Of a stretch of DNA of 64,000 bases, positions 29,907 to 56,919 are shown one piece after another (the first letter of the stretch is position 1; each line of letters begins with the position of its first letter). Source of the DNA: Nitrososphaerota archaeon (GTDB lineage Archaea; Thermoproteota; Nitrososphaeria_A; Caldarchaeales; JAVZCJ01); contig JAVZCJ010000005.1 in assembly GCA_038874475.1 (NCBI GenBank), positions 1 through 64,000 of the forward strand, given 5' to 3'. A program made the position numbers and the translations under genes. The notes below the pieces were generated by a model. It searched no databases, was not told the DNA's origin, and worked only from the letters and a program-made list of their open reading frames with translations.

Positions 29907-30261
29907 TTATTTTCACATCCTTTCCTGTTGGATTTTTCTTAATCATTTCTTCAATAGTTAAAATCTTTCCATTTGCAGATAAAATTTTTTCAATAGCTTT
30001 TATAGAAAATTCAAAAGCTGATAAAGTTATTGAATGATTTATTTCTCCATCTCCAAGAACTTTTCCTGGTACAATTACTTTATCCTTAGGCTTAGTAAGT
30101 CTATTAATTTTAGATATATTTACTACTTTCTTTTTCCTTCTAGGTTTTAAAGCTTCTTCTGCTATTCTTTTCCAAAAATTGGATTTTTTCCCAGCTTCTT
30201 TTAATATTTCATACAATCTTGTTTTCATAGGATTTTTTGTCCTAATCTTGTATTTTTTCAT
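29899..30261 (-). CDS. rpl18e: Ribosomal protein eL18
   Basis: A 120-residue eL18 (L18e): TKNPMKTRLYEILKEA, VVNISKINRLTK, VIVPGKVLGDGEINH, and LSAFEFSIKAIEKI. It starts within the last codons of rpoD (20-base overlap). Part of the large ribosomal subunit. Confidence 0.95.
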   Translation of the reverse strand: MKKYKIRTKNPMKTRLYEILKEAGKKSNFWKRIAEEALKPRRKKKVVNISKINRLTKPKDKVIVPGKVLGDGEINHSITLSAFEFSIKAIEKILSANGKILTIEEMIKKNPTGKDVKIIV

Positions 30262-31087
30262 TTCTCTCTCCCTTTAAAATTTTTATGTTTTTTTCAAATT
30301 CTTCTAATTTTTGCTGTAAAACTTTAATTGCTTCTTTAAACATTCTAAAAGGGGATAAAAAACCAAAAGATTCAATATAGAGTATAAAAGAATTATTCAC
30401 TTCATTAATTGAAATTGCTGGGGGGTCTTTAGGACATGCTTTAATACAATCTTTACATAAAGTACAATCATAAATATTTTCAAAAAATATTTTTCCATTT
30501 TTTATATATAGAATTTTTTTAGCACAAATTTCAATACATTTCTTACATAAATCACATTTTTTATAATCTATTGCTATTGAAGGCATGTTTTTTAAAGTAG
30601 CTATTCCTGATTGCCATTTAGCATTTTTTGCTCCAATCCCTACTCTTACATAAAGTTCTAAAGAAATTTTTTGACCAGGAGCAAGTTTAACTATTGGGAT
30701 ATTTTTACTAACTGGAACAACTTTAGTATTAGGATCTTCTGGAACCATATCTCCTGAATATACTGTTAGAAAATCCTCATTTGCTTCTTTTATAAGAGTG
30801 TATCTTACAACACATTTATTACATCCTAACTTACTTCCACAATCACATTTTTCTGGTAAAACATAATTATCTATATCTGAAATAAATGGAATTAAAGCTA
30901 ATCTATGAGCTAATACCTCATCAGACATTGCTGAAGAATTTTCAAGAACTAAAATTTCTTCAATAGCCATTGTTGGGACTTCATTTATAATATTTCTTCT
31001 TAATGCATTTGCTATAGCTAAAGGTATATCTTCTAAAATAATCTTTGCATATTTCTCATCTGATTCAAGCAAAGTTATTTTTACCAT
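30242..31087 (-). CDS. rpoD: DNA-directed RNA polymerase subunit D with 4Fe-4S domain
   Basis: The 281-residue RpoD (RPB3/alpha-like) assembles the polymerase core. N-terminal dimerisation motifs are LANALRRN-like IANALRRNIINEVPTMAIEEI. A ferredoxin-like domain carries two full cluster motifs: C178, C181, C184, C188 and C208, C211, C214, C218. Another Cys set, C81, C83, C89, C92, may bind zinc. Known archaeal RpoDs have zero, one or two clusters, with proposed redox-linked assembly. First gene of the superoperon, with a TATA-like box ctatttaaatac upstream. Confidence 0.95.
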   Translation of the reverse strand: MVKITLLESDEKYAKIILEDIPLAIANALRRNIINEVPTMAIEEILVLENSSAMSDEVLAHRLALIPFISDIDNYVLPEKCDCGSKLGCNKCVVRYTLIKEANEDFLTVYSGDMVPEDPNTKVVPVSKNIPIVKLAPGQKISLELYVRVGIGAKNAKWQSGIATLKNMPSIAIDYKKCDLCKKCIEICAKKILYIKNGKIFFENIYDCTLCKDCIKACPKDPPAISINEVNNSFILYIESFGFLSPFRMFKEAIKVLQQKLEEFEKNIKILKGERNEKIQD

Positions 31088-31368: not shown

Positions 31369-32190
31369 TTATATGAGGATTTTAAGAAAAGATGGAATAA
31401 TGCCGAGTAAAGTTGGTATAGTTAATCCAGCTACAATTTGTTTACGTAATAAAATTAAGAAATTTATTATACATCCTAAAAATATTAATAAAGAAGATAA
31501 AATAAAAATTGAAAATCCAAATCTATAATAAGATAAAGAAGGTGGAATAGCATAAAAAATAAATTCTCCTAATCCAATTTCAATGAATTTGCCTATATAG
31601 GCTCCCTTCCCAATTAATTCTTTTACTCTTTTTAAAAAAATAAAATTTACTAAAAATAAATCAAAGAATGCTATTAAAATACTTATTAATAAAGCTACTA
31701 AAGTTGGTATAATTACCCCAAAAAATGATCCAAATATTGCTCCATAAAAAACCATTATAAAATTTTTTATTTTAATTGGGAGCATATCTGCTATTATTAA
31801 TATTTCTATTATCATTGTTGAATAAAGTGAAGCAATAATTATTAAAGAAATCAATGTTATGCTTAATTGTTTATATAGTATAAGAATTAATGTTTCAGAA
31901 AAAATTATCAATCCCATAATTATTATTGGTGATAAAATTGCACCTATCACTACTTTTATGTAAACAGAAGTGCTTTTTAATAAAAGCATGTATAAAATAG
32001 TTAAGCATACTAAACCTGAACCCCCAAATAAAAGAGTGGTTTCTATAATCTTTAAAAAATTTATTTCTTCTTTTATTGGAGGCCTAATTATAGAATATGC
32101 ATAAGAGAAACTAAAAGAAATTATTATAACTATTAATATCAATAAAAAATATTCTATTATTGTTTTATATTCATAATTTTTTTTATTCAT
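31369..32190 (-). CDS. Presenilin-like aspartyl protease homologue with GLGE motif
   Basis: The 273-residue protein has about nine hydrophobic segments and presenilin-type motifs: FFDLF with D177, then IGLGEFIFY with E209 and IPTL at about 258-261. In active presenilin and archaeal PSH proteases the pairs are a D in segment 6, GxGD in segment 7 and PAL in segment 9. Here the second catalytic Asp is Glu. It may be an inactive membrane protein or a variant protease. It is a lone gene between rpoD and a peptide ABC ATPase pair. Confidence 0.7.
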   Translation of the reverse strand: MNKKNYEYKTIIEYFLLILIVIIISFSFSYAYSIIRPPIKEEINFLKIIETTLLFGGSGLVCLTILYMLLLKSTSVYIKVVIGAILSPIIIMGLIIFSETLILILYKQLSITLISLIIIASLYSTMIIEILIIADMLPIKIKNFIMVFYGAIFGSFFGVIIPTLVALLISILIAFFDLFLVNFIFLKRVKELIGKGAYIGKFIEIGLGEFIFYAIPPSLSYYRFGFSIFILSSLLIFLGCIINFLILLRKQIVAGLTIPTLLGIIPSFLKILI

Positions 32191-32353: not shown

Positions 32354-33313
32354 TTGCCTCTTCTTGAGGTTCATGGATTAAAAACTTATTTTGAAACTAC
32401 TAAAGGATATGTTAAAGCTGTGGATAATGTTAGTTTTTCATTAGAGAAAGGAGATGCTTTTGGATTAGCTGGAGAATCTGGTTGTGGAAAAACAACTACT
32501 GGTTTATCTATAATAAAGCTTCTCCCATTTAATGGGAAAATATTAGATGGAAAAATTATTTTTGATGGAATCGATTTAGTTGAGATGCCTGAAGAAATAT
32601 TAAGAAAGAATATTAGATGGAAACGTATTTCAATAGTTTTTCAAGGTGCTATGAATGCTTTAAATCCAGTATACACTATTGGAGATCAAATAATTGAAGC
32701 TATCCTTACTCATGAAGATATTTCTAATGAAGAAGCTAAAGAAAGAGTTATTAAACTTTTTGAACTTGTAGGCATAGACCCATCCCGAATAAATAATTAT
32801 CCTTTTGAATTTAGTGGAGGAATGAAACAAAGAGCTATGATCGCTATGGCATTAGCATGTAATCCAGATATAGTTATAACAGATGAACCTACAACTGCTT
32901 TGGATGTTATAGTTCAAGCTCAAGTTTTAAAGCTTTTAAAAAAGCTTAAAGAAGAATTAAACCTTTCTTTCATAATGATTTCACATGATTTATCAGTTAT
33001 AGCTGAAACATGTAATAAAGTAGCTATAATGTATGCAGGTAAAATTATCGAAATGGCTGATGTAGTTAGATTATTTAAAAATCCTTCACATCCATATTCT
33101 CAAGGATTAATGAATTCTTTCCCATCTCTTAAAGGTCCAAGAAAAAAACTTATTTCAATTCCAGGTTCTCCACCAAATCTTTTATTTCCACCATCAGGAT
33201 GCAGATTCCATCCTAGATGTCAATATGCATGGGAAAAATGTAAAGAAGAAGAACCTTTATTAATAGAAATTGATAAAGGTCATTATGCAGCTTGCCATTT
33301 ATTAAAGAAGTGA
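32354..33313 (+). CDS. Dipeptide/oligopeptide ABC transporter ATPase, OppD-type
   Basis: A 319-residue ATPase of the Opp/Dpp family: Walker [12 protein letters not shown], signature FSGGMKQRAMIAMAL, Walker B IVITDEPTTALDV, and the C-terminal oligopeptide domain with a four-Cys region beginning GCRFHPRCQYAWEKC. Starts at TTG. The next gene is the matching OppF, 6 bases later. No permease or binding protein is adjacent, so it may serve components encoded elsewhere. A 44-base tract is identical to oppF around the P-loop (see findings). Confidence 0.9.
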   Translation: MPLLEVHGLKTYFETTKGYVKAVDNVSFSLEKGDAFGLAGESGCGKTTTGLSIIKLLPFNGKILDGKIIFDGIDLVEMPEEILRKNIRWKRISIVFQGAMNALNPVYTIGDQIIEAILTHEDISNEEAKERVIKLFELVGIDPSRINNYPFEFSGGMKQRAMIAMALACNPDIVITDEPTTALDVIVQAQVLKLLKKLKEELNLSFIMISHDLSVIAETCNKVAIMYAGKIIEMADVVRLFKNPSHPYSQGLMNSFPSLKGPRKKLISIPGSPPNLLFPPSGCRFHPRCQYAWEKCKEEEPLLIEIDKGHYAACHLLKK

Positions 33314-33319
33314 GAATTT

Positions 33320-34315
33320 ATGAATTCAGAAGAAATTTTGCTTCAAGTTAGAAATTTAAAAAAATATTTTCCATTAAGAAGAGGTTTTCTATCTTCTATA
33401 TTTGGTGGCCCAGAGCTTTATGTTCATGCTGTGGATAATATTAGTTTTAATATTAAAAAAGGTGAAATATTTGGATTAGCTGGAGAATCTGGTTGTGGAA
33501 AAACAACTACTGGAAGAGCTATTCTTAGACTTGTTGAACCTACTTCTGGATCGATAATATTTAATGGAGAAGATATTCTTAAATTGAATAAAGAACAATT
33601 AAAGCCTTTTAGAAAAAGAATGCAAATTATTTTTCAAGATCCTTATGAATCATTAAATCCAAGAATGACTGTGTATGATATACTAAGCGAACCACTTGAT
33701 ATTCATGAAATAACTGAAGATCCAAATGAAAAAAAAGAAATCATAGCAAAAGCTCTTGAAGAAGTTGAAATATCTCCTCCTGAAGATTTCATGGATAGAT
33801 ATCCACATGAACTTAGTGGTGGCCAACGTCAAAGAGTAGCGGTAGCAAGGGCATTAATTCTTAAACCAGAATTCATAGTTGCAGATGAACCAGTTTCAAT
33901 GCTTGATGTTTCTATAAGAGCTGAAGTATTAAATTTAATGTTAAAATTAAGAGATGAACATAAAATATCTTATCTTTTCATTACTCATGATTTAGCAATA
34001 GGAAGACATATGAGTGAAAGAATGGGTATAATGTATGCAGGTAAAATTGTTGAAATGGCTGAATCTGAAAAATTAGTTAATGAACCTTTGCATCCATATA
34101 CTCAAGCACTTATGGCAGCTGTTCCAAGTCCAGATCCAACCGCCGAAAGAATAAAATTAGTTATTGGAGGGGAAGTTCCAAATTTAGTTAATCCTCCACC
34201 TGGTTGTCGTTTTGCACCACGTTGCCCAAAAGCTATGGAAATTTGTAAAAAAGCTGATCCAATTGAAATAGAAATTGAAAAAGATAGATTTGTTGCATGC
34301 TATTTATATGCTTGA
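33320..34315 (+). CDS. Dipeptide/oligopeptide ABC transporter ATPase, OppF-type
   Basis: A 331-residue OppF-type ATPase: Walker [18 protein letters not shown], signature LSGGQRQRVAVARAL, Walker B FIVADEPVSMLDVS, and C-terminal GCRFAPRCPKAMEIC. It pairs with the OppD-type product just upstream. Four Cys at the C terminus may hold an Fe-S centre in this family. Confidence 0.9.
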   Translation: MNSEEILLQVRNLKKYFPLRRGFLSSIFGGPELYVHAVDNISFNIKKGEIFGLAGESGCGKTTTGRAILRLVEPTSGSIIFNGEDILKLNKEQLKPFRKRMQIIFQDPYESLNPRMTVYDILSEPLDIHEITEDPNEKKEIIAKALEEVEISPPEDFMDRYPHELSGGQRQRVAVARALILKPEFIVADEPVSMLDVSIRAEVLNLMLKLRDEHKISYLFITHDLAIGRHMSERMGIMYAGKIVEMAESEKLVNEPLHPYTQALMAAVPSPDPTAERIKLVIGGEVPNLVNPPPGCRFAPRCPKAMEICKKADPIEIEIEKDRFVACYLYA

Positions 34316-34417
34316 ATTATTAAAAAGTATAAAGTATAAAAATATACTTATTTTTTACATATACTAAAGCTTAAATAAATGAAAATATATAACAATTTTT
34401 AAGTTTAGGTGTTTTAT

Positions 34418-34795
34418 ATGAAATATAGATTAATGGATATTCTTGCTTGCCCAATATGTAAAAAATTTCCATTGGAACTTATTGTATTTGATGAAACTAA
34501 ATCAAGATATAAGCCTAGAGAATGGAAATGTGAAGAATATTGTGGTTTTTCAAAAGAATTTGTTTCTAAACTTGAAAAGCTTAATTGTGAAGATTGTCTT
34601 TCAAGAGAAATAGTTGAAGGTATTCTTTTTTGTTCTAATTGTAATAGATGGTATCCAATTATAGAAGAAATTCCACAAATGCTTCCAGATGATTTAAGAG
34701 ATAAAAATAAAGATTTATCATTTTTATCTAAATGGAAAGATAAAACTCCTTTAAAAATAGTTGAAGGTGGAAAACCATATAATTTAATAGGTTAG
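34418..34795 (+). CDS. trm112: Trm112-family zinc-binding activator
   Basis: A 125-residue Trm112-like protein: MDILACPICKKFPLELIVF at the start, a middle Cys pair CEDC (after an inserted CEEYCGF region), and CSNCNRWYPIIEEIPQML, the conserved C-terminal zinc half. Trm112 binds and activates methyltransferases, including Mtq2/HemK2 for release factor and tRNA enzymes. The start is ATG 34418, with taggtg upstream. An Mtq2-like gene lies at 39304. Confidence 0.85.
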   Translation: MKYRLMDILACPICKKFPLELIVFDETKSRYKPREWKCEEYCGFSKEFVSKLEKLNCEDCLSREIVEGILFCSNCNRWYPIIEEIPQMLPDDLRDKNKDLSFLSKWKDKTPLKIVEGGKPYNLIG

Positions 34796-35141: not shown

Positions 35142-35783
35142 TTATTCCTTTTTAGAAGTTCCTTCTTCTTTATTCTCATAATATTTATATGGTTCAGGTA
35201 ATTCAGGAAAAGCACTTTTCATTCTTTGAGCTGCAATTTCATTTGCTTCTTCAAGTATTTTTTTTGCTTCTTCATCATACGCAGATACACTAACTACAGT
35301 ACCAGATACACTGCTAACTTCTGTTAAAAGATTATCTAGCATATCTCCCACTCTGCTTAAATTCATAGCTACTTCTGGAACAACTCCACTTAATTCTCCT
35401 TGAACTTGTTGAACAATGTTTGCAGCTGGACCTAAAATTTTACCTATATCTCCAAATTCTTTTACGGTTTCTAATCTAAGAATAACTTGTTCAAGTGAAA
35501 GTTGACTTCTAAGAAGAGTTCTAGACATTTTTCTAAGCTGAGCTACTTCATTAGCATATACTGTAGCTCTAGCAGTATCTTGTTCCTGGCTTGCTTTTAC
35601 ACATTTTTCAAAAAGTTCTTTCCCTCTTTCAGTTAATCTTTGAACTGTTCTATTAAGTTTTTCAGATTGAATTCTTAAAAGCATTAAAATTTCGCTTATT
35701 CTTTCTGTAGTTCTTTTCTCAGGAGGTGGAGGAGGAAGAACTTTTACTTCCTCTTGTTTTTTCCAAAAAGGAAATTTAACCAT
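35142..35783 (-). CDS. cdvB: CdvB-family ESCRT-III protein (no winged helix)
   Basis: A 213-residue ESCRT-III (Snf7) protein of the archaeal Cdv division system. The basic helix 1 (ILMLLRIQSEKLNRTVQRLTERGKELFEKC), the helix 2 region with YANEVAQLRKMSRTLLRSQLSLEQVILRLETV, and the acidic C-terminal helices are clear. A Pro-rich N-terminal patch lies at residues 17-21. It lacks the C-terminal winged helix present in the paralogue at 37174. ESCRT-III filaments constrict the membrane and are remodelled by CdvC. Divergent from cdvC. Confidence 0.92.
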   Translation of the reverse strand: MVKFPFWKKQEEVKVLPPPPPEKRTTERISEILMLLRIQSEKLNRTVQRLTERGKELFEKCVKASQEQDTARATVYANEVAQLRKMSRTLLRSQLSLEQVILRLETVKEFGDIGKILGPAANIVQQVQGELSGVVPEVAMNLSRVGDMLDNLLTEVSSVSGTVVSVSAYDEEAKKILEEANEIAAQRMKSAFPELPEPYKYYENKEEGTSKKE

Positions 35784-35993
35784 TTCCTTGCACCATTTTA
35801 ATTGTAAAATATTTCTATATTTACTACTATATTAACCTATTGCTTAGAAAAATTTTTTCATTTTAAATTCTAAATATTTTCTAAAAAGAAACTTTTAAAA
35901 GAATCGAATTTTTAAAATATTTAATATAAATTTATATTTCCAAAATATAATAATAAATGTATAAATTTGGAATATCTGTATAGGTGGAAAATT

Positions 35994-37115
35994 TTGTTTT
36001 CTGAAGAACTTAGGAAAATAGCTTCTGAAAAAGCTAATGAAGCAATAAAGCTTGATAAGCAAGGAAATTATTCAATGGCTATTCTTAAATATCGGCAAGT
36101 AGTTGACCTTCTTTTTAAGCTTTATAATTTAACTGAGGATCCTGCTATTAAAAAAGTATATTACGAAAAAATGAAAAGCTATGAAGAGCGTATTCATATA
36201 CTTGAATCAATGGTGGAAGGTGAATCTATTAAAGTTGAGGAAGCGGCTAAATTTAATGATTTAGTTTTAAAAGAAAAACCAAGTATTTCATGGAATGATG
36301 TAATAGGTTTAGAAGATGCTAAAAAATCTATAAGAGAAAGCATAGTTTATCCTGTTAAAAGACCTGATTTATTTCCATTAGGTTGGCCTAAAGGCATATT
36401 ATTATATGGTCCACCAGGATGTGGAAAAACACTTTTAGCAGCAGCTGTAGCATCTGAAATAGATGCTACTTTTTATTATGTTGATGCAGCATCTATAATT
36501 TCTAAATGGCTTGGAGAATCTGAGAAAAATGTTGCTAGACTTTTTTCTTCTGCAAGGAAATCTATTAGTAAAGAACGTCCAGCCATAATATTCATAGATG
36601 AAATAGATTCTCTTACTTCTATTCATCAAGTTGAAGTTGGTGGAGAAACTAGAGCTAGAAATCAAATTTTAAAAGAAATGGACGGTCTTTCTGAAAAATC
36701 TAAAACTGAGCATTTATATGTTATAGGTGCTACCAATAAGCCTTGGGATTTAGATGAACCATTCATAAGAAGATTTCAAAAACGTATTTATGTTCCTTTA
36801 CCAAGTAAAGAAAATAGATTAGCTTTATTTAAGCATTATACAAAAGATTTAGCCCTTAGTGATGATGTAGATTTTGAAGAATTGGCAATATTAACAAATG
36901 GATATAGTGGGAACGATATTCGAGATATTTGCATGAGTGTTCAAATTAAAGTTGTAAGAGAATTATTTGAAAGTGGTGTTGTTGATAAAAATATGAAACC
37001 TAGATTAATCAATATGTTTGATTTCTTAGAAGCTATAAAAATTAGACGTCCAAGTGTTTCTTTTGACAGTATTAGAAAATATGAAGAATGGGCTAGAAGA
37101 TGGATGGCTTTATAA
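35994..37115 (+). CDS. cdvC: CdvC (Vps4-like AAA ATPase with MIT domain)
   Basis: CdvC disassembles ESCRT-III filaments. The N-terminal MIT domain (about residues 3-75, ASEKANEAIKLDKQGNYSMAILKYRQVV) binds CdvB tails. The AAA module has Walker A GPPGCGKT, Walker B IIFIDEIDSL, sensor GATNKPWDL and arginine fingers in FIRRFQKRIYV. A TTG at 35994 is preceded by aggtgg (35982-35987), a good ribosome site, so it is preferred over the in-frame TTG at 35967. Divergent from one cdvB and convergent with the other. Confidence 0.95.
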   Translation: MFSEELRKIASEKANEAIKLDKQGNYSMAILKYRQVVDLLFKLYNLTEDPAIKKVYYEKMKSYEERIHILESMVEGESIKVEEAAKFNDLVLKEKPSISWNDVIGLEDAKKSIRESIVYPVKRPDLFPLGWPKGILLYGPPGCGKTLLAAAVASEIDATFYYVDAASIISKWLGESEKNVARLFSSARKSISKERPAIIFIDEIDSLTSIHQVEVGGETRARNQILKEMDGLSEKSKTEHLYVIGATNKPWDLDEPFIRRFQKRIYVPLPSKENRLALFKHYTKDLALSDDVDFEELAILTNGYSGNDIRDICMSVQIKVVRELFESGVVDKNMKPRLINMFDFLEAIKIRRPSVSFDSIRKYEEWARRWMAL

Positions 37116-37173
37116 TTTTATTTCCAATTTTTTATTATTCTTTAAAAAATTAAATATTTGAATTAAAAATGGT

Positions 37174-37998
37174 TTAATAACTTTCTTCTTCTCTTTTTAA
37201 AATTATTTTCCCTTCCTTTTCAAGCTTTTCTATTGCTTTTTCAACTTCTTCTTCTGATAAACTTAAAACAGATGCACATTCTTCTATGTCAAAATCTTTA
37301 TAATGTTCCTTAATATAAGCATAAACCATTTTCTTAATTTGTTCATCTTTTACTTCAGTTATTTCTGGAAAACTTTCTTCTATTCTTTCAGAAGCAACTA
37401 TGCTTGCTTCTTCTAATATATCTCTAGCTTCTCCACTTAAATCAGTTGATATACTAATTTCTTCTATTGGTATTCCAGTTGTAGCTGAAATAAATCCTTC
37501 AATACTTTCTTGTAATTCTGTTAATGTTAAAGCTGCTTCTGGGATAATTCCTTTAACTTCTTCTTTTATACTTAAAATTATTTTATTTAAAGGTGTAAGT
37601 AATCCAACAACTTCTCTTAATTCTTCTATTGTTTCCAATCTAAGCTTTATTTGTTCAAATATCAATTCGCTATGAAATATCATTCTAGCAAGTTTCCTAA
37701 CTTCAGCAACTTCTTGAGCATAAATTTTTGCCCTTTCTTCATCTTTGTTTGCTAATGCTTCTATACATTTTTCAAAATATTCTTTATTCTTTTGTTCTAA
37801 ATTGGAATATTTTTTCCTAAGTTTTTGAATTTGAATATCTAATTTTCCTATTATTTCTTCTATTTTAAGTATGAATTCTTCAGGTTTGTATAGCTTATTT
37901 ACATCCATGAGTCTATGTTCTACTTCATTAGTCCATACTTTTTCTTTTCTAATTTTTAAAATACTTTTTACATTTGATAGTATTTCTTTTAGCCTCAT
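37174..37998 (-). CDS. cdvB: CdvB-family ESCRT-III protein with C-terminal winged helix
   Basis: A 274-residue ESCRT-III paralogue with the Snf7 core (LEQKNKEYFEKCIEALANKDEERAKIYAQEVAEVRKLARM) and a C-terminal winged helix (about 220-270, MVYAYIKEHYKDFDIEECASVL with the HTH segment LSLSEEEVEKAIEKLEKEGKI). In Sulfolobus this type of C-terminal domain lets CdvB bind CdvA. This copy is convergent with cdvC, so the three genes form a compact division cluster. No cdvA is in the window. Confidence 0.9.
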   Translation of the reverse strand: MRLKEILSNVKSILKIRKEKVWTNEVEHRLMDVNKLYKPEEFILKIEEIIGKLDIQIQKLRKKYSNLEQKNKEYFEKCIEALANKDEERAKIYAQEVAEVRKLARMIFHSELIFEQIKLRLETIEELREVVGLLTPLNKIILSIKEEVKGIIPEAALTLTELQESIEGFISATTGIPIEEISISTDLSGEARDILEEASIVASERIEESFPEITEVKDEQIKKMVYAYIKEHYKDFDIEECASVLSLSEEEVEKAIEKLEKEGKIILKREEESY

Positions 37999-51485: not shown

Positions 51486-53147
51486 GTGGATATCTTTCCT
51501 CAAAAATTTAAACTATTAGCCGCCGTTATAGTTATAGCTACAGTTATGGTAATAGCCTTTGCATGGTTATACTTTTTCCAAGCGCCTCCACAAAAACCAA
51601 CAGAAACAACTTCGATTATTACAACTCCTACTAAAACAGAAATACCAGGAAAATATGGTGGAGAACTAGTTGTAGCTAATATAGCAGATGTTCTTAGAAT
51701 GGACCCAATGCTTATAACAGATGTTCCAACAGCAACTATTGCTTACCAAATATTTGACTTCTTAGTAAGATATAATCACGAAACAAAGCAATATGAGCCT
51801 GGATTAGCAATTTCTTGGGAAGCTTCAGAAGATGCTAAAACATGGACTTTTAAATTAAGAAAAGGTGTGAAATTTCATGACGGGACTCCATTTAATGCAG
51901 AAGCAGTGAAATTTACTATAGATAGAGTTTTAGACCCTCAAAGTAAATCTCCATTATCGCAAGATTTTAGAGATAATGTAGAAAGTGTAGAAGTTGTTGA
52001 TGAATACACAGTAGTTTTCCATTTAAAAAATCCATTAGCATCTTTCCTAGATAGAATAATAAGAAATCAAGGAGCAATGATAGTAAGCCCAACAGCGGTT
52101 AAAAAATATGGAGATGATTTTTCTAATCATCCTGTTGGAACAGGGCCTTTTATGTTTAAAGAATGGATTCCTGGAGAGAGAGTGGTTCTTGTAAAAAATC
52201 CAGATTATTGGGGAGGAGCACCAATAATAGATACCTTAATATTTAAACCAATGCCTGAAAGTGCAGCTCAAGTAGCAGCTTTGCAAGCAGGTCAAGTAGA
52301 TGTAATACTTTCCATACCTAAAGAATCTCTTGAAATATTAGAAAAGGATCCTAATGTATTAGTCCTTAAAATGCCAGGTTATACAACATTTGGTATTGTA
52401 TTTAATTGTGAAAGTGAATTCTTCATGGATAAGCGTGTTAGACAAGCATTAAATTATGCAATAGACAAAAATGAAATAGTTAACGCTTTATTTAAAGGTA
52501 TGGGTGTAAGGATATATTCACCATTGCCTTCAGCATCGTGGGCATATACTGAAGATGTTAATAAATTTGAATATAATCCTGAAAAAGCTAAAGCTCTTTT
52601 AGAAGAAGTTGGATGGAAACCAGGTCCAGATGGTATACTAGAAAAAGATGGTAAGAAGTTCTCATTTGTATGTATAACTCAAGAAGGTAAGGAAGCTGAA
52701 GACCTTGTAACAGCTGTGCAAAGTTATCTTAAAAAAATAGGAATAGATATGAAAATCCAAATTTTCGAATATGGAACATGGGTTGATATGCTTGTAACTC
52801 ATCAATTTGATGCAGGATATATCTGGTGGGCAGCTGGTGCTGGTGATCCAGACCACTATTTCCCATTCTTATTCTATTCAACTGGCTGGGCTAATTGTGG
52901 CTTATATAGTAATAGCAAAGTGGATGAACTTATCATAAAAGTATCTCAAACTCCTTCTTTTGAAGAAAGGAAGAAATTGGCAGCAGAAGCACAAAAATTA
53001 ATAGTTGATGATGTAGCTTGGATCCATTTCTATAGTAAATATACCATGGTAGCTACAAAGAAAACAGTAGGAGGCGTAATTTTAACTCCATCAGAAGGTG
53101 AAATAGACTTCTATAAAACATACTTTACTTCACCAAAAGGTGGCTGA
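51486..53147 (+). CDS. Peptide ABC transporter substrate-binding protein (OppA/DppA)
   Basis: A 553-residue SBP family 5 protein. N-terminal hydrophobic helix (about 9-30) anchors it, followed by a Thr/Pro linker (35-50). Then YGGELVVANIADVLRMDPML, TWTFKLRKGVKFHDGTPFNAEAVKFTIDR and FNHPVG-type SNHPVGTGPFMFKEWIPGERVVL motifs of the family. No lipobox Cys and no Tat motif are seen. Starts at GTG after ggggg. It binds di- or oligopeptides, or possibly a nickel or glutathione-like ligand. Confidence 0.9.
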   Translation: MDIFPQKFKLLAAVIVIATVMVIAFAWLYFFQAPPQKPTETTSIITTPTKTEIPGKYGGELVVANIADVLRMDPMLITDVPTATIAYQIFDFLVRYNHETKQYEPGLAISWEASEDAKTWTFKLRKGVKFHDGTPFNAEAVKFTIDRVLDPQSKSPLSQDFRDNVESVEVVDEYTVVFHLKNPLASFLDRIIRNQGAMIVSPTAVKKYGDDFSNHPVGTGPFMFKEWIPGERVVLVKNPDYWGGAPIIDTLIFKPMPESAAQVAALQAGQVDVILSIPKESLEILEKDPNVLVLKMPGYTTFGIVFNCESEFFMDKRVRQALNYAIDKNEIVNALFKGMGVRIYSPLPSASWAYTEDVNKFEYNPEKAKALLEEVGWKPGPDGILEKDGKKFSFVCITQEGKEAEDLVTAVQSYLKKIGIDMKIQIFEYGTWVDMLVTHQFDAGYIWWAAGAGDPDHYFPFLFYSTGWANCGLYSNSKVDELIIKVSQTPSFEERKKLAAEAQKLIVDDVAWIHFYSKYTMVATKKTVGGVILTPSEGEIDFYKTYFTSPKGG

Positions 53148-53152
53148 AAAAT

Positions 53153-54097
53153 ATGGTTCTAAGATACTTTATCAAACGCCTTCTTTATTTTTTTCCAGTT
53201 ATTTTAATGGTTAGTTTTTTAGTATTTATAATGATTAGGCTTATTCCAGGAGACCCAGCTAGAACTATAGCTGGAATTATGGCTAGTGAAGAAGATGTTG
53301 AAAGAATACGTATTCAACTCGGTTTAAAAGAGCCTATTCATATTCAATTTATTAAATGGATTTCAAATATTCTCAAGGGGGATTTAGGTATTTCGATAAG
53401 AACGAATAGACCTGTAGCTCTTGAAATATTTTCACGTTTACCAAATACTATAGAATTAACTATCGTAGGTTTATTTATTGCTATAATTATAGGTATTCCA
53501 ATAGGAATAATTGCAGCTATTAAAAGGGGAAAATTATCAGATACATTGCTTTCAATTTCTGCACTTTCTGGAATTTCTATTCCAGTTTTTTGGATGGGTT
53601 TAGTATTAATTTATGTTTTCTCTTTAAGTTTAGGGATTTTACCAGTAGGTGAAAGAGGTGGACCGCTATGGACAATTGAAGGATTATCTCATATAATACT
53701 TCCTTCAATAACAATAGCAGCTCCATCAGCAGGAGTTTTTGCTAGAATAACAAGGTCTAGCATGATTGAAGTATTAGAACAAGAATATATTAGAACAGCT
53801 AAAGCAAAAGGGCTTAAAATGAATATAATAATTTTTAGACATTGTATTAGAAATGTTCTTGTTCAATTAATAACAATAATTGGAATGCAATTTGGTTATC
53901 TATTAGGTGGGGCTATAGTAACTGAAACAGTTTTTGCTTGGCCGGGTATTGGTAGGCTTTTAGTAGATGCCATAATTTCAAGAGATTACCCATTAGTCCA
54001 AGGAATAGTATTAATTTACTCAATATTATTTGTATCAATTAACTTATTTATTGATTTGATATATGGGATTATAGACCCTAGAATTAGGTATGAGTAA
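53153..54097 (+). CDS. dppB: Peptide ABC transporter permease DppB-type
   Basis: A 314-residue, six-segment permease: MIRLIPGDPARTIAG, the EAA loop region RITRSSMIEVLEQEYIRTAKAKGLK and ETVFAWPGIGRLLVDAI near the C terminus, typical of DppB. It follows the SBP by 5 bases and pairs with DppC. Confidence 0.94.
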   Translation: MVLRYFIKRLLYFFPVILMVSFLVFIMIRLIPGDPARTIAGIMASEEDVERIRIQLGLKEPIHIQFIKWISNILKGDLGISIRTNRPVALEIFSRLPNTIELTIVGLFIAIIIGIPIGIIAAIKRGKLSDTLLSISALSGISIPVFWMGLVLIYVFSLSLGILPVGERGGPLWTIEGLSHIILPSITIAAPSAGVFARITRSSMIEVLEQEYIRTAKAKGLKMNIIIFRHCIRNVLVQLITIIGMQFGYLLGGAIVTETVFAWPGIGRLLVDAIISRDYPLVQGIVLIYSILFVSINLFIDLIYGIIDPRIRYE

Positions 54098-54110
54098 TTC
54101 GTGAATAAAG

Positions 54111-54998
54111 ATGTTCAATATAACAAATCTCTCTACAAAATTAACAGATTACTTCTTTGCACTAAGGGATCTTTGGAATGTTTTGAAAAAGAAAAGAAGC
54201 TCTAAGATAGGCTTATCCATAGTTATTTTCTTATCAATCATTGCTTTATTTGCTCCAATAATTGCTCCATATGATCCTAATGAACAATTACTCGGGAAAG
54301 CTTTGCTTCCTCCATCTTTAAAGCATCCTATGGGTACTGACCATCTTGGTAGAGATATTTTTAGTAGAGTAGTTCATGGTTCACGTATATCTCTTACCGT
54401 AGGTTTATTAGTTATATTCATTGGTCTACTTTTTGGAGTTCCACTAGGGTTAATTTCTGGATATTATGGTGGTTGGAAAGATAATTTAATAATGAGAGTA
54501 GTAGATATTTTATTTGCTCTTCCAGATTTCTTATTAGCACTTTTCATAGTTTCAATAATAGGTAGAGGATTGGAAAATGCTATAATTGCTGTAGGGATAT
54601 TTTCTATACCTATATATGCAAGACTTGTGAGAGGTTCTGTGCTTTATATTAGAGAGCTTGAATTTATTGAAGGTGCAAAAGCTTTAGGATTAAATAGTTT
54701 TAGAATAATTTTTAAGCATATTCTACCTAATGTTTTACCACCAATAATAGTTTTATCAACTTTACAAATTGCAGATGCTATATTAGTAGCTTCAGCTCTT
54801 AGTTTTCTTGGACTTGGTGCTCAACCACCTACTCCTGAATGGGGTGCAATGGTAAGTACTGGAAGACATTATTTAAGAACAGCTCCTTGGGTATCTGTTT
54901 TCCCTGGAATGGCTATATTTTTGGCAGTAATCGGATTAAATTTACTCGGAGATGGTTTAAGAGAAGCTCTTGATCCAAGATTAAGGAGGTTAACTTAA
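54111..54998 (+). CDS. dppC: Peptide ABC transporter permease DppC-type
   Basis: A 295-residue permease: APYDPNEQLLGKALLPPSLKHPMGTDHLGRDIFSRVVHGSR is the DppC opening, and ALGLNSFRIIFKHILPNVLPP is the coupling loop. The stop overlaps the next start (TAATG). A strong ribosome site aaggaggt lies inside its last codons. Confidence 0.94.
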   Translation: MFNITNLSTKLTDYFFALRDLWNVLKKKRSSKIGLSIVIFLSIIALFAPIIAPYDPNEQLLGKALLPPSLKHPMGTDHLGRDIFSRVVHGSRISLTVGLLVIFIGLLFGVPLGLISGYYGGWKDNLIMRVVDILFALPDFLLALFIVSIIGRGLENAIIAVGIFSIPIYARLVRGSVLYIRELEFIEGAKALGLNSFRIIFKHILPNVLPPIIVLSTLQIADAILVASALSFLGLGAQPPTPEWGAMVSTGRHYLRTAPWVSVFPGMAIFLAVIGLNLLGDGLREALDPRLRRLT

Positions 54999-55957
54999 TG
55001 CTAGAATTACTTAAAATATCAAATTTAAAAGTTTACTTTGAAACTGATGAAGGAGAAGTTAAAGCAGTTGATGGGATAGATTTAGAAATTAATGAAGGGG
55101 AAACTCTTGGTCTTGTAGGAGAAAGTGGATGTGGAAAAACAACTACTGGTTTATCTATAATTAAACTTCTTCCTCAAAATAGTAAAGTTAGTGGGAAAAT
55201 ACTTTTTCTTAATGAAGATTTATTATCTAAAAATGAGGAAGAAATGAATCAAATAAGAGGAAATAAAATATCAATGATTTTCCAAAATCCCAATACTTCA
55301 TTAAATCCATTAATGAGTGTTGGTTTTCAAATAGCTGAAGTTTTAATGTTTCATAAAAATATGTCTAAAAAAGATGCTTATAAAGAGGCTACTAAATTAC
55401 TTAAAATTGTCGGAATGCCAGATCCTGAAAAAACTTTAAAAAAATATCCTCATGAACTTAGTGGAGGAATGAAGCAAAGAGTCGTAATAGCTATGGCTCT
55501 AGCTTGTAAACCTAAACTTGTAATTGCAGATGAGCCTACAACTGCTGTTGATGTTACAATTCAAGCTCAAATACTTGAATTAATGAAAGAGTTACAAAGA
55601 GAATTTAATATTTCAATATTATTAATAAGTCATGATTTTGGAGTAATAGCTGAAATGTGTGATAAAGTTGCTGTAATGTATGCAGGAAAAATAGTTGAGA
55701 AAGGTTCTATAAAACAAATTTTTAAAAACCCTAAACATCCATACACAATTGGTTTACTTAAAGCATTGCCTAAACGTAATGTTGATTGGCTTGCAACAAT
55801 TCCAGGAATAGTGCCTAGCCTAATAAATCCTCCTAAAGGATGTAGATTTAGTAATAGGTGTGAATATGTAATGGACAAATGTATTAAAAACAATCCTGAA
55901 TTATTAGAAATTGAAGAGGGGCATTTAGTCGCATGTTACCTAATAAATATGAAATGA
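54998..55957 (+). CDS. dppD: Peptide ABC transporter ATPase DppD-type
   Basis: A 319-residue ATPase: Walker [12 protein letters not shown], signature [15 protein letters not shown], Walker [15 protein letters not shown]-terminal [15 protein letters not shown]. Encoded right after DppC, so it belongs to this operon, unlike the ATPase pair at 32354. Confidence 0.94.
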
Positions 55958-56919
55958 TTAATAATAGTTCTCTTTTAAAAATCATCAATTTAAAGAAGTA
56001 CTTTTCTGTAAGGACTGGTATTTTTAAAAAGAAAAGTGTTAAAGCTGTAGATGGTGTGAATTTAGATATTAAAAGTGGTGAAACTCTTGGTCTTGTGGGA
56101 GAAAGTGGTAGTGGAAAAACTACATTGGGAAGATGCATACTTAGATTAATCGAGCCAGACTCTGGACAAATACTTTATAACGGGGTGGATATAACACAAT
56201 TAAACAATATGTCAAGCTTTAGGAGGAAAATGCAAATTGTTTTCCAAAATCCTACAGCTTCTCTTAATCCAAGAATGAAAATAGGTGAAATAATTAGCGA
56301 AGGAATAGAATTTTATAAGATTTGCGATAGAAATGAAGTAGTTAATCATGTATTAAATCTATTAGAAATGGTTGGATTGAAAGCTGAACATATCAATAGA
56401 TATCCCCATGAATTAAGTGATGGACAAAAACAAAGAGTAGCTATTGCAAGAGCATTATCTGTAAAACCTGAATTCATTGTTTTAGATGAACCTACTTCAG
56501 CTCTTGACTTATCTATCCAAGCTCAAATATTAAACTTATTTAAAAAATTAAAGATGGATTTTAAATTAACATATTTATTTATAACGCATAATCTTAGCAT
56601 CGTAGATTTTATGTGTGATAAAGTTGCTGTAATGTATTTAGGTAAAATATTTGAAGTAGGCCCAACCAATAAAATTTTAGATAATCCAGCCCATCCATAT
56701 ACTTATGTGCTTTTATCTTCTTTACCAAGCACCGATCCTGACTTAAGAAAAATTAAAAAAATAGTAAGGGGTGAAGCTTATATTCCAATAGATTTTAAGG
56801 GATGTAAATTTTATAATCGTTGTCCTTATGCAAAAGAAAAATGTCTTGAACTAGAACCAATTTTAAATCCGTTAGATTCTAATGATAGACTTGTAGCATG
56901 TCATTTCCCATTAGTTTAA
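55954..56919 (+). CDS. dppF: Peptide ABC transporter ATPase DppF-type, LSDGQ signature
   Basis: About 321 residues: Walker [12 protein letters not shown], Walker [15 protein letters not shown] and C-terminal [15 protein letters not shown]. The signature motif reads [15 protein letters not shown], with Asp (codon 56419-56421) where Gly is normal (LSGGQ). The start at ATG 55954 forms an ATGA overlap with dppD. The last gene of the operon. Confidence 0.9.

Follow-up and report, generated by a model that had tools for sequence, protein, structure and literature searches.

The closest described systems to the gene analyzed here are the intramembrane aspartyl proteases of the GxGD presenilin/SPP family (PF01080 and PF06550), exemplified in archaea by MCMJR1/PSH. 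The exchange of either catalytic aspartate for glutamate in MCMJR1 (D220E or D162E) is reported to leave the protein inactive, which its authors take as evidence of a specific requirement for Asp (PMC2947513). In PSEN1, neither autocleavage nor gamma-secretase activity is reported to survive the D385E or D257E change (PMC5669866), and PS1 D385E is reported to have failed in the processing of sortilin-family fragments (PMC1513133). The inactivity of MCMJR1 D220E and PSEN1 D385E agrees with a preliminary description of the present locus, made from its letters alone, which held that an Asp-to-Glu change normally kills such enzymes. Nevertheless, SPPL2c is reported to have long been called a pseudoprotease before it was shown to cleave (PMC7768045), and glutamyl intramembrane proteases are described as a recognized class (PMC7248309). 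With the GxGD family the protein studied here has in common the fold, as predicted, the TM6 Asp, the G-x-G and a C-terminal [AP]GL loop, while it differs in having Glu for the second Asp, Phe for the Tyr of the YD motif and Ala for the Pro of PAL.

The GLGE gene, its motifs and its predicted fold

The window, by which we mean the whole analyzed stretch of 64,000 nucleotides from a Nitrososphaerota archaeon (contig JAVZCJ010000005.1, positions 1 to 64,000), carries the gene and the motif features given below.

31369..32190 (-), gene of the GLGE presenilin-fold protein, 273 aa, an open frame without internal stop
31645..31704 (-), TM6, model helix 163-182 (TM numbering by analogy with presenilin)
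31663-31665 (-), codon of F176, the residue before D177; Tyr of the YD motif in 153/173 other homologues
31660-31662 (-), codon of D177, the TM6 Asp, kept according to the alignment to homologues
31564-31575 (-), GLGE motif, residues 206-209
31564..31566 (-), E209 (GAA), replacing the second catalytic Asp of GxGD
31519..31572 (-), TM7, helix 207-224 of the AlphaFold2 model, beginning inside the GLGE motif
31423..31431 (-), PAL-equivalent A254-G255-L256, followed by T257-I258-P259, placed by alignment to relatives

The single-sequence family search with the GLGE protein returned no Pfam and no NCBIfam family at E ≤ 10, and the protein has no match to PF01080 Presenilin or PF06550 SPP over the curated cut-off, though both models were matched by several of the relatives found with it. 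The orthologue in G001, the one other genome of the genus covered, gave one sub-threshold family match, to a phage holin model, and a scan of the named genome contigs with the GLGE protein alone found no relative. A similarity to neurotensin receptor in the phmmer search against PDB (22/22 matches, best E 0.0012) was judged to be chance hydrophobic similarity. The AlphaFold2 model, built from a 102-row alignment, has a pLDDT of 92.8 and a pTM of 0.89, and it places two short strands (197-199 and 204-206) ahead of TM7. Its best match among solved structures is human presenilin-1 (Z 24.6 over 264 residues, 3.3 A), with archaeal PSH at Z 19.9 and SPPL2a at Z 19.5, and the next unrelated structures match at Z <7; the model of the canonical GLGD paralogue reaches up to Z 30.1 against presenilin-1. 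The GLGE protein is thus predicted with high confidence to keep the presenilin fold. The preliminary description had assigned the frame to the presenilin family, with the Asp of segment 6 kept, GLGE standing in place of GLGD and the rest of the fold retained. The relatives and the high-confidence model, matching presenilin-1 and PSH, bear out the family and the fold although the single-sequence search was silent, and the Asp and Glu codons were confirmed as D177 and E209. Its reading of the PAL region as IPTL did not hold, for the aligned PAL position is AGL (254-256), where most relatives have PGLPxP.

Glutamate at the GxGD site and other departures from the family

The homologue set comprised 266 loci, of which 265 had a family match, with 271 matching open frames that reduce to 177 distinct homologues by their last 120 residues. 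A two-pattern scan of the named genome contigs, with one pattern permitting Asp or Glu at the site, yielded 98 relatives, and the best 80 of these 98 were merged into the 177 with duplicates collapsed. The first catalytic residue is Asp in 175/177 distinct homologues, with two uncovered there, and the second is Asp in 174/177 and Glu in two, namely the GLGE gene and its orthologue, with one fragment uncovered. A DNA motif scan for G-[ILMF]-G-E-[ILMF]-x-F-Y, which is blind to GVGE and to motifs lacking FY, matched 10 of 398 genomes drawn from the larger phylum, and only two of the matches lie in a presenilin frame, both in this genus; archaea beyond the phylum were covered by the two-pattern contig scan only. 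The survey of homologues for Glu that the preliminary description had proposed therefore found none outside the genus (2/177, and the 398-genome scan), and the many active Glu-carrying homologues that it named as a possible refutation did not appear. A misread base, the other refutation it named, is ruled out because G001 carries a protein about 86-87% identical, with GLGE, the same GAA codon and the same gene order. The two genomes that carry the GLGE protein give only a weak test of whether E209 itself is conserved.

The GLGE pair departs from the other homologues at 7/21 columns that are at least 80% conserved, these being T51, F176, I184, E209, A214, A254 and T257. Five of the seven (176, 209, 214, 254 and 257) fall within or next to the motifs YD, GxGD and PAL, and E209 is the sole departure at a fully invariant column (Asp in 174/174 others). 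Phe before the TM6 Asp also occurs in 15 other homologues. Position 254 is Pro in 166/172 other homologues and Ala in 6/172, all six of which keep GxGD, and position 257, Thr in the GLGE protein, is Pro in 160/172. The protein accordingly has AGL instead of the P-[AG]-L form of the PAL motif, though archaeal MCMJR1 is reported to have no obvious PAL, which makes PAL a soft feature (PMC2947513). D177 is retained, as are the two glycines of the motif and the F-x-F-Y that follows it.

Selection, neighborhood and ancestry

Both genomes of the genus carry a 301-residue canonical GLGD presenilin elsewhere. Within the order, 39/44 genomes match the presenilin family alignment, and two full-length copies are found only in the two genomes of this genus; G039 has two presenilin pieces, one of them at a contig edge, and the second match in G029 is weak and partial (E 8e-4). 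Purifying selection acts on the GLGE gene, with a dS of 0.35, a dN of 0.068 and a ratio of 0.196 between the two genomes (Nei-Gojobori). Fifteen neighboring genes range from 0.03 to 0.26 in dN/dS (rpoD, 0.191; one further neighbor had no orthologue in the G001 stretch compared), so the GLGE gene is on a par with its neighbors and is therefore maintained. An apparently stronger conservation of TM7-TM9 (4/86 residues changed at 181-266 vs 27/180 at 1-180) vanishes once the tail is added (10/93). A decaying duplicate heading to a pseudogene would fit the greater divergence of the GLGE pair relative to the canonical pair (86% vs 96% identity) and the change of several motif residues. The canonical pair, however, has a low dS (0.064, with dN 0.019 and a ratio of 0.29), so stronger constraint need not be the cause of its higher identity, and the GLGE frame is open and full-length in both genomes, its dN/dS of about 0.20 is below the 0.29 of the canonical pair, and gene order and fold are kept; decay is thus highly improbable.

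The genes on the opposite side of the start codon run divergently from the GLGE gene.

32354..33313 (+), oppD-type ATPase (ABC_tran + oligo_HPY), divergent from the GLGE gene, with start codons 163 bp apart
33320..34315 (+), oppF-type ATPase (ABC_tran + oligo_HPY)
34409..34795 (+), Trm112p-like small protein

Reading of the ORF lists gave no permease or binding-protein gene beside the oppD-oppF pair, and in G001 the divergent oppD-oppF genes adjoin the GLGE gene as well. Elsewhere in the window, a further opp operon, apparently complete (A, B, C, D and F), occupies 51486-56919; its genes were named by reading, oppD also by its oligo_HPY match. The RpoD homologue at 30242-31087 has a predicted 4Fe-4S dicluster stretch, for which one Fer4 model is just over the cut-off and others are below it. 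At 35142-37998 the sequence reads as a Vps4-like ATPase gene flanked by two CdvB-like (ESCRT-III) genes.

The Trm112-like gene adjoins the presenilin in 16/20 regions of the order (L312-L331), a neighbor that was not known when these regions were picked. Genes of opp type are present in 9/20 of the regions around the canonical presenilins of the order, a figure that overstates their share because several of the regions were already known to have opp when picked. The genus's own GLGD copies (L268 and L269) have neither opp nor a Trm112-like gene in the 12.0 and 11.4 kb examined. A general archaeal link between presenilin and opp, apparently strong in the near relatives, was rejected: opp genes are near 5/70 other presenilin loci of at least 5.5 kb, and near 0/20 canonical loci outside the order (about 8 kb on each side, one shorter), against 3/20 control regions of the same genomes.

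In the ML tree, for which 72 of 121 homologues served as rows and L182 was left out, the GLGE pair joins a presenilin-like protein of G223 (99/81), apart from the genus's own GLGD copies, and proteins of G339 and G284 lie near this group (95/49), with that of G347 weakly so (81/56). The placement is insecure because long branches meet at the GLGE group, and those rows have an odd letter make-up. The AU test, for which the groups were picked with the tree already in view, rejects a clade of the GLGE pair with the own GLGD copies (p 0.004) and one with all members of the order (p 1.4e-8); the first of these results speaks against recent duplication from the genus's own GLGD gene. Judged by its position, nonetheless, the GLGE gene occupies the setting of the presenilins of the order, at odds with the tree. 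As Trm112-like and opp genes also stand beside the canonical presenilins of the order, it is possible that a replacement took place at an old presenilin site, or that a fast branch has been misplaced. In the same tree L095, a presenilin relative in a record titled Candidatus Nealsonbacteria, lies closest by tree path to the own GLGD pair, which may reflect gene transfer or a mis-binned contig.

The best match to the GLGE protein outside the genus is the G223 protein (E 3.3e-17), and the two have a TM4-TM5 segment in common (ADMLP...KN...VFYG). A longer TM4-TM5 segment is common to the GLGE protein and all the divergent proteins of G223 (L058), G339 (L061), G284 (L068) and G185 (L182), which differ from it in keeping GxGD and in having Ala or Cys for the YD Tyr. 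Such proteins are rare, being found in 1/81 genomes of the class of G223 and, at more than 40% identity to that of G339, in 4/90 genomes of the family of G339. Overall, L061, L068, L182, L058 and L335 are rare and patchy across archaeal families, with Ala, Cys or Val before the TM6 Asp. Tandem presenilin-like gene pairs were also observed in some genomes (L277:6569-8398, L278:7721-9598 and L156:1547-3396), the records of L156 and of L129, whose contig has the same length as that of L277, being titled Candidatus Bathyarchaeota.

The neighborhood also bears on whether the GLGE protein might be a membrane carrier, a channel or a transporter accessory, with D177 and E209 forming an ion or peptide site in the presenilin cavity, perhaps together with OppD-OppF. 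The divergent oppD-oppF neighbors in both genomes accord with such a role, as do the opp genes that adjoin the divergent relatives in G339 and G185 (2/4), and opp genes adjoin the relative in G347 too. No opp gene was seen near the G223 relative, however (7.6 kb covered to one side and 5.4 kb, up to the contig end, to the other), or in the adjoining stretch examined beside the G284 relative, and nothing indicates transport. Because opp also stands beside canonical copies in the order, an inherited block is suggested and not a partnership of the GLGE variant, and a transport role is very unlikely.

Protease activity and putative role

In the GLGE gene a catalytic residue that published mutants mark as essential is replaced, and the gene is otherwise maintained. 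As the published Asp-to-Glu mutants are inactive, loss of protease activity is the best inference for the GLGE protein, which fails the defining GxGD test and, judged by its residues, is most likely a pseudoprotease. We therefore consider that the gene probably encodes a genus-specific presenilin pseudoprotease. The preliminary description had offered this reading, and it is supported by the kept fold, by the lack of Glu outside the genus in the surveys above and by the inactivity of the published mutants, from which non-cleavage by the GLGE protein would follow. The retention of D177 and of both motif glycines, which are not needed without catalysis, counts against it. In the open-access literature nothing was found for 'GxGE' with 'intramembrane' or for 'presenilin' with 'Aigarchaeota', and among the matches listed no title named a presenilin pseudoprotease.

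The same retained residues, with the F-x-F-Y, would be expected of an intramembrane protease that is active through an Asp/Glu dyad, in which F176, A214, A254 and T257 would adjust the pocket to let the longer Glu pair with D177. Four of the six departures other than E209 from the columns at least 80% conserved fall in or beside catalytic motifs, the gene is under purifying selection, and the recognized class of glutamyl intramembrane proteases (PMC7248309) gives a parallel for such an enzyme. On the other hand, Asp-to-Glu at this very site is reported to have abolished cleavage in MCMJR1 and PSEN1, and no other natural GxGE was found among the 177 homologues or in the 398-genome motif scan, so we regard an active enzyme as unlikely. 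If true, it would be the first glutamate-using presenilin.

Under the pseudoprotease reading, the GLGE protein would not cleave, because the Glu carboxylate would lie one methylene beyond the diaspartyl geometry and F176, A214, A254 and T257 are changed; for PSH in a bilayer, a distance of about 6.8 A between the two C-gammas is reported to be sampled (PMC9282858). The groove in the membrane where transmembrane helices bind would be retained, and the protein might bind or hold membrane-embedded clients without cutting them, in the manner of iRhoms among the rhomboids. These rhomboid pseudoproteases, reported to keep an intramembrane protease fold without catalysis (PMC3149277, PMC7618786), offer a functional parallel only, with a fold and a catalytic class unrelated to those of the GLGE protein, whose clients are candidates only. 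Such clients might be shielded from the canonical enzyme or passed on to it. Peptides or parts of a peptide transporter are possible clients given the oppD-oppF neighbors, and this is the weakest step of the proposal, since opp is not a general presenilin feature (0/20 vs 3/20 controls) and the neighborhood thus says little about clients.

Presenilins are regarded as strictly dependent on the second Asp of GxGD, and the GLGE protein is a natural, selected homologue without it. Two questions are thereby made testable, namely whether the presenilin fold may do non-cutting work and whether its dyad may tolerate Glu. The system consists of one small protein from an archaeon, and the canonical paralogue that shares its cell supplies an internal control.
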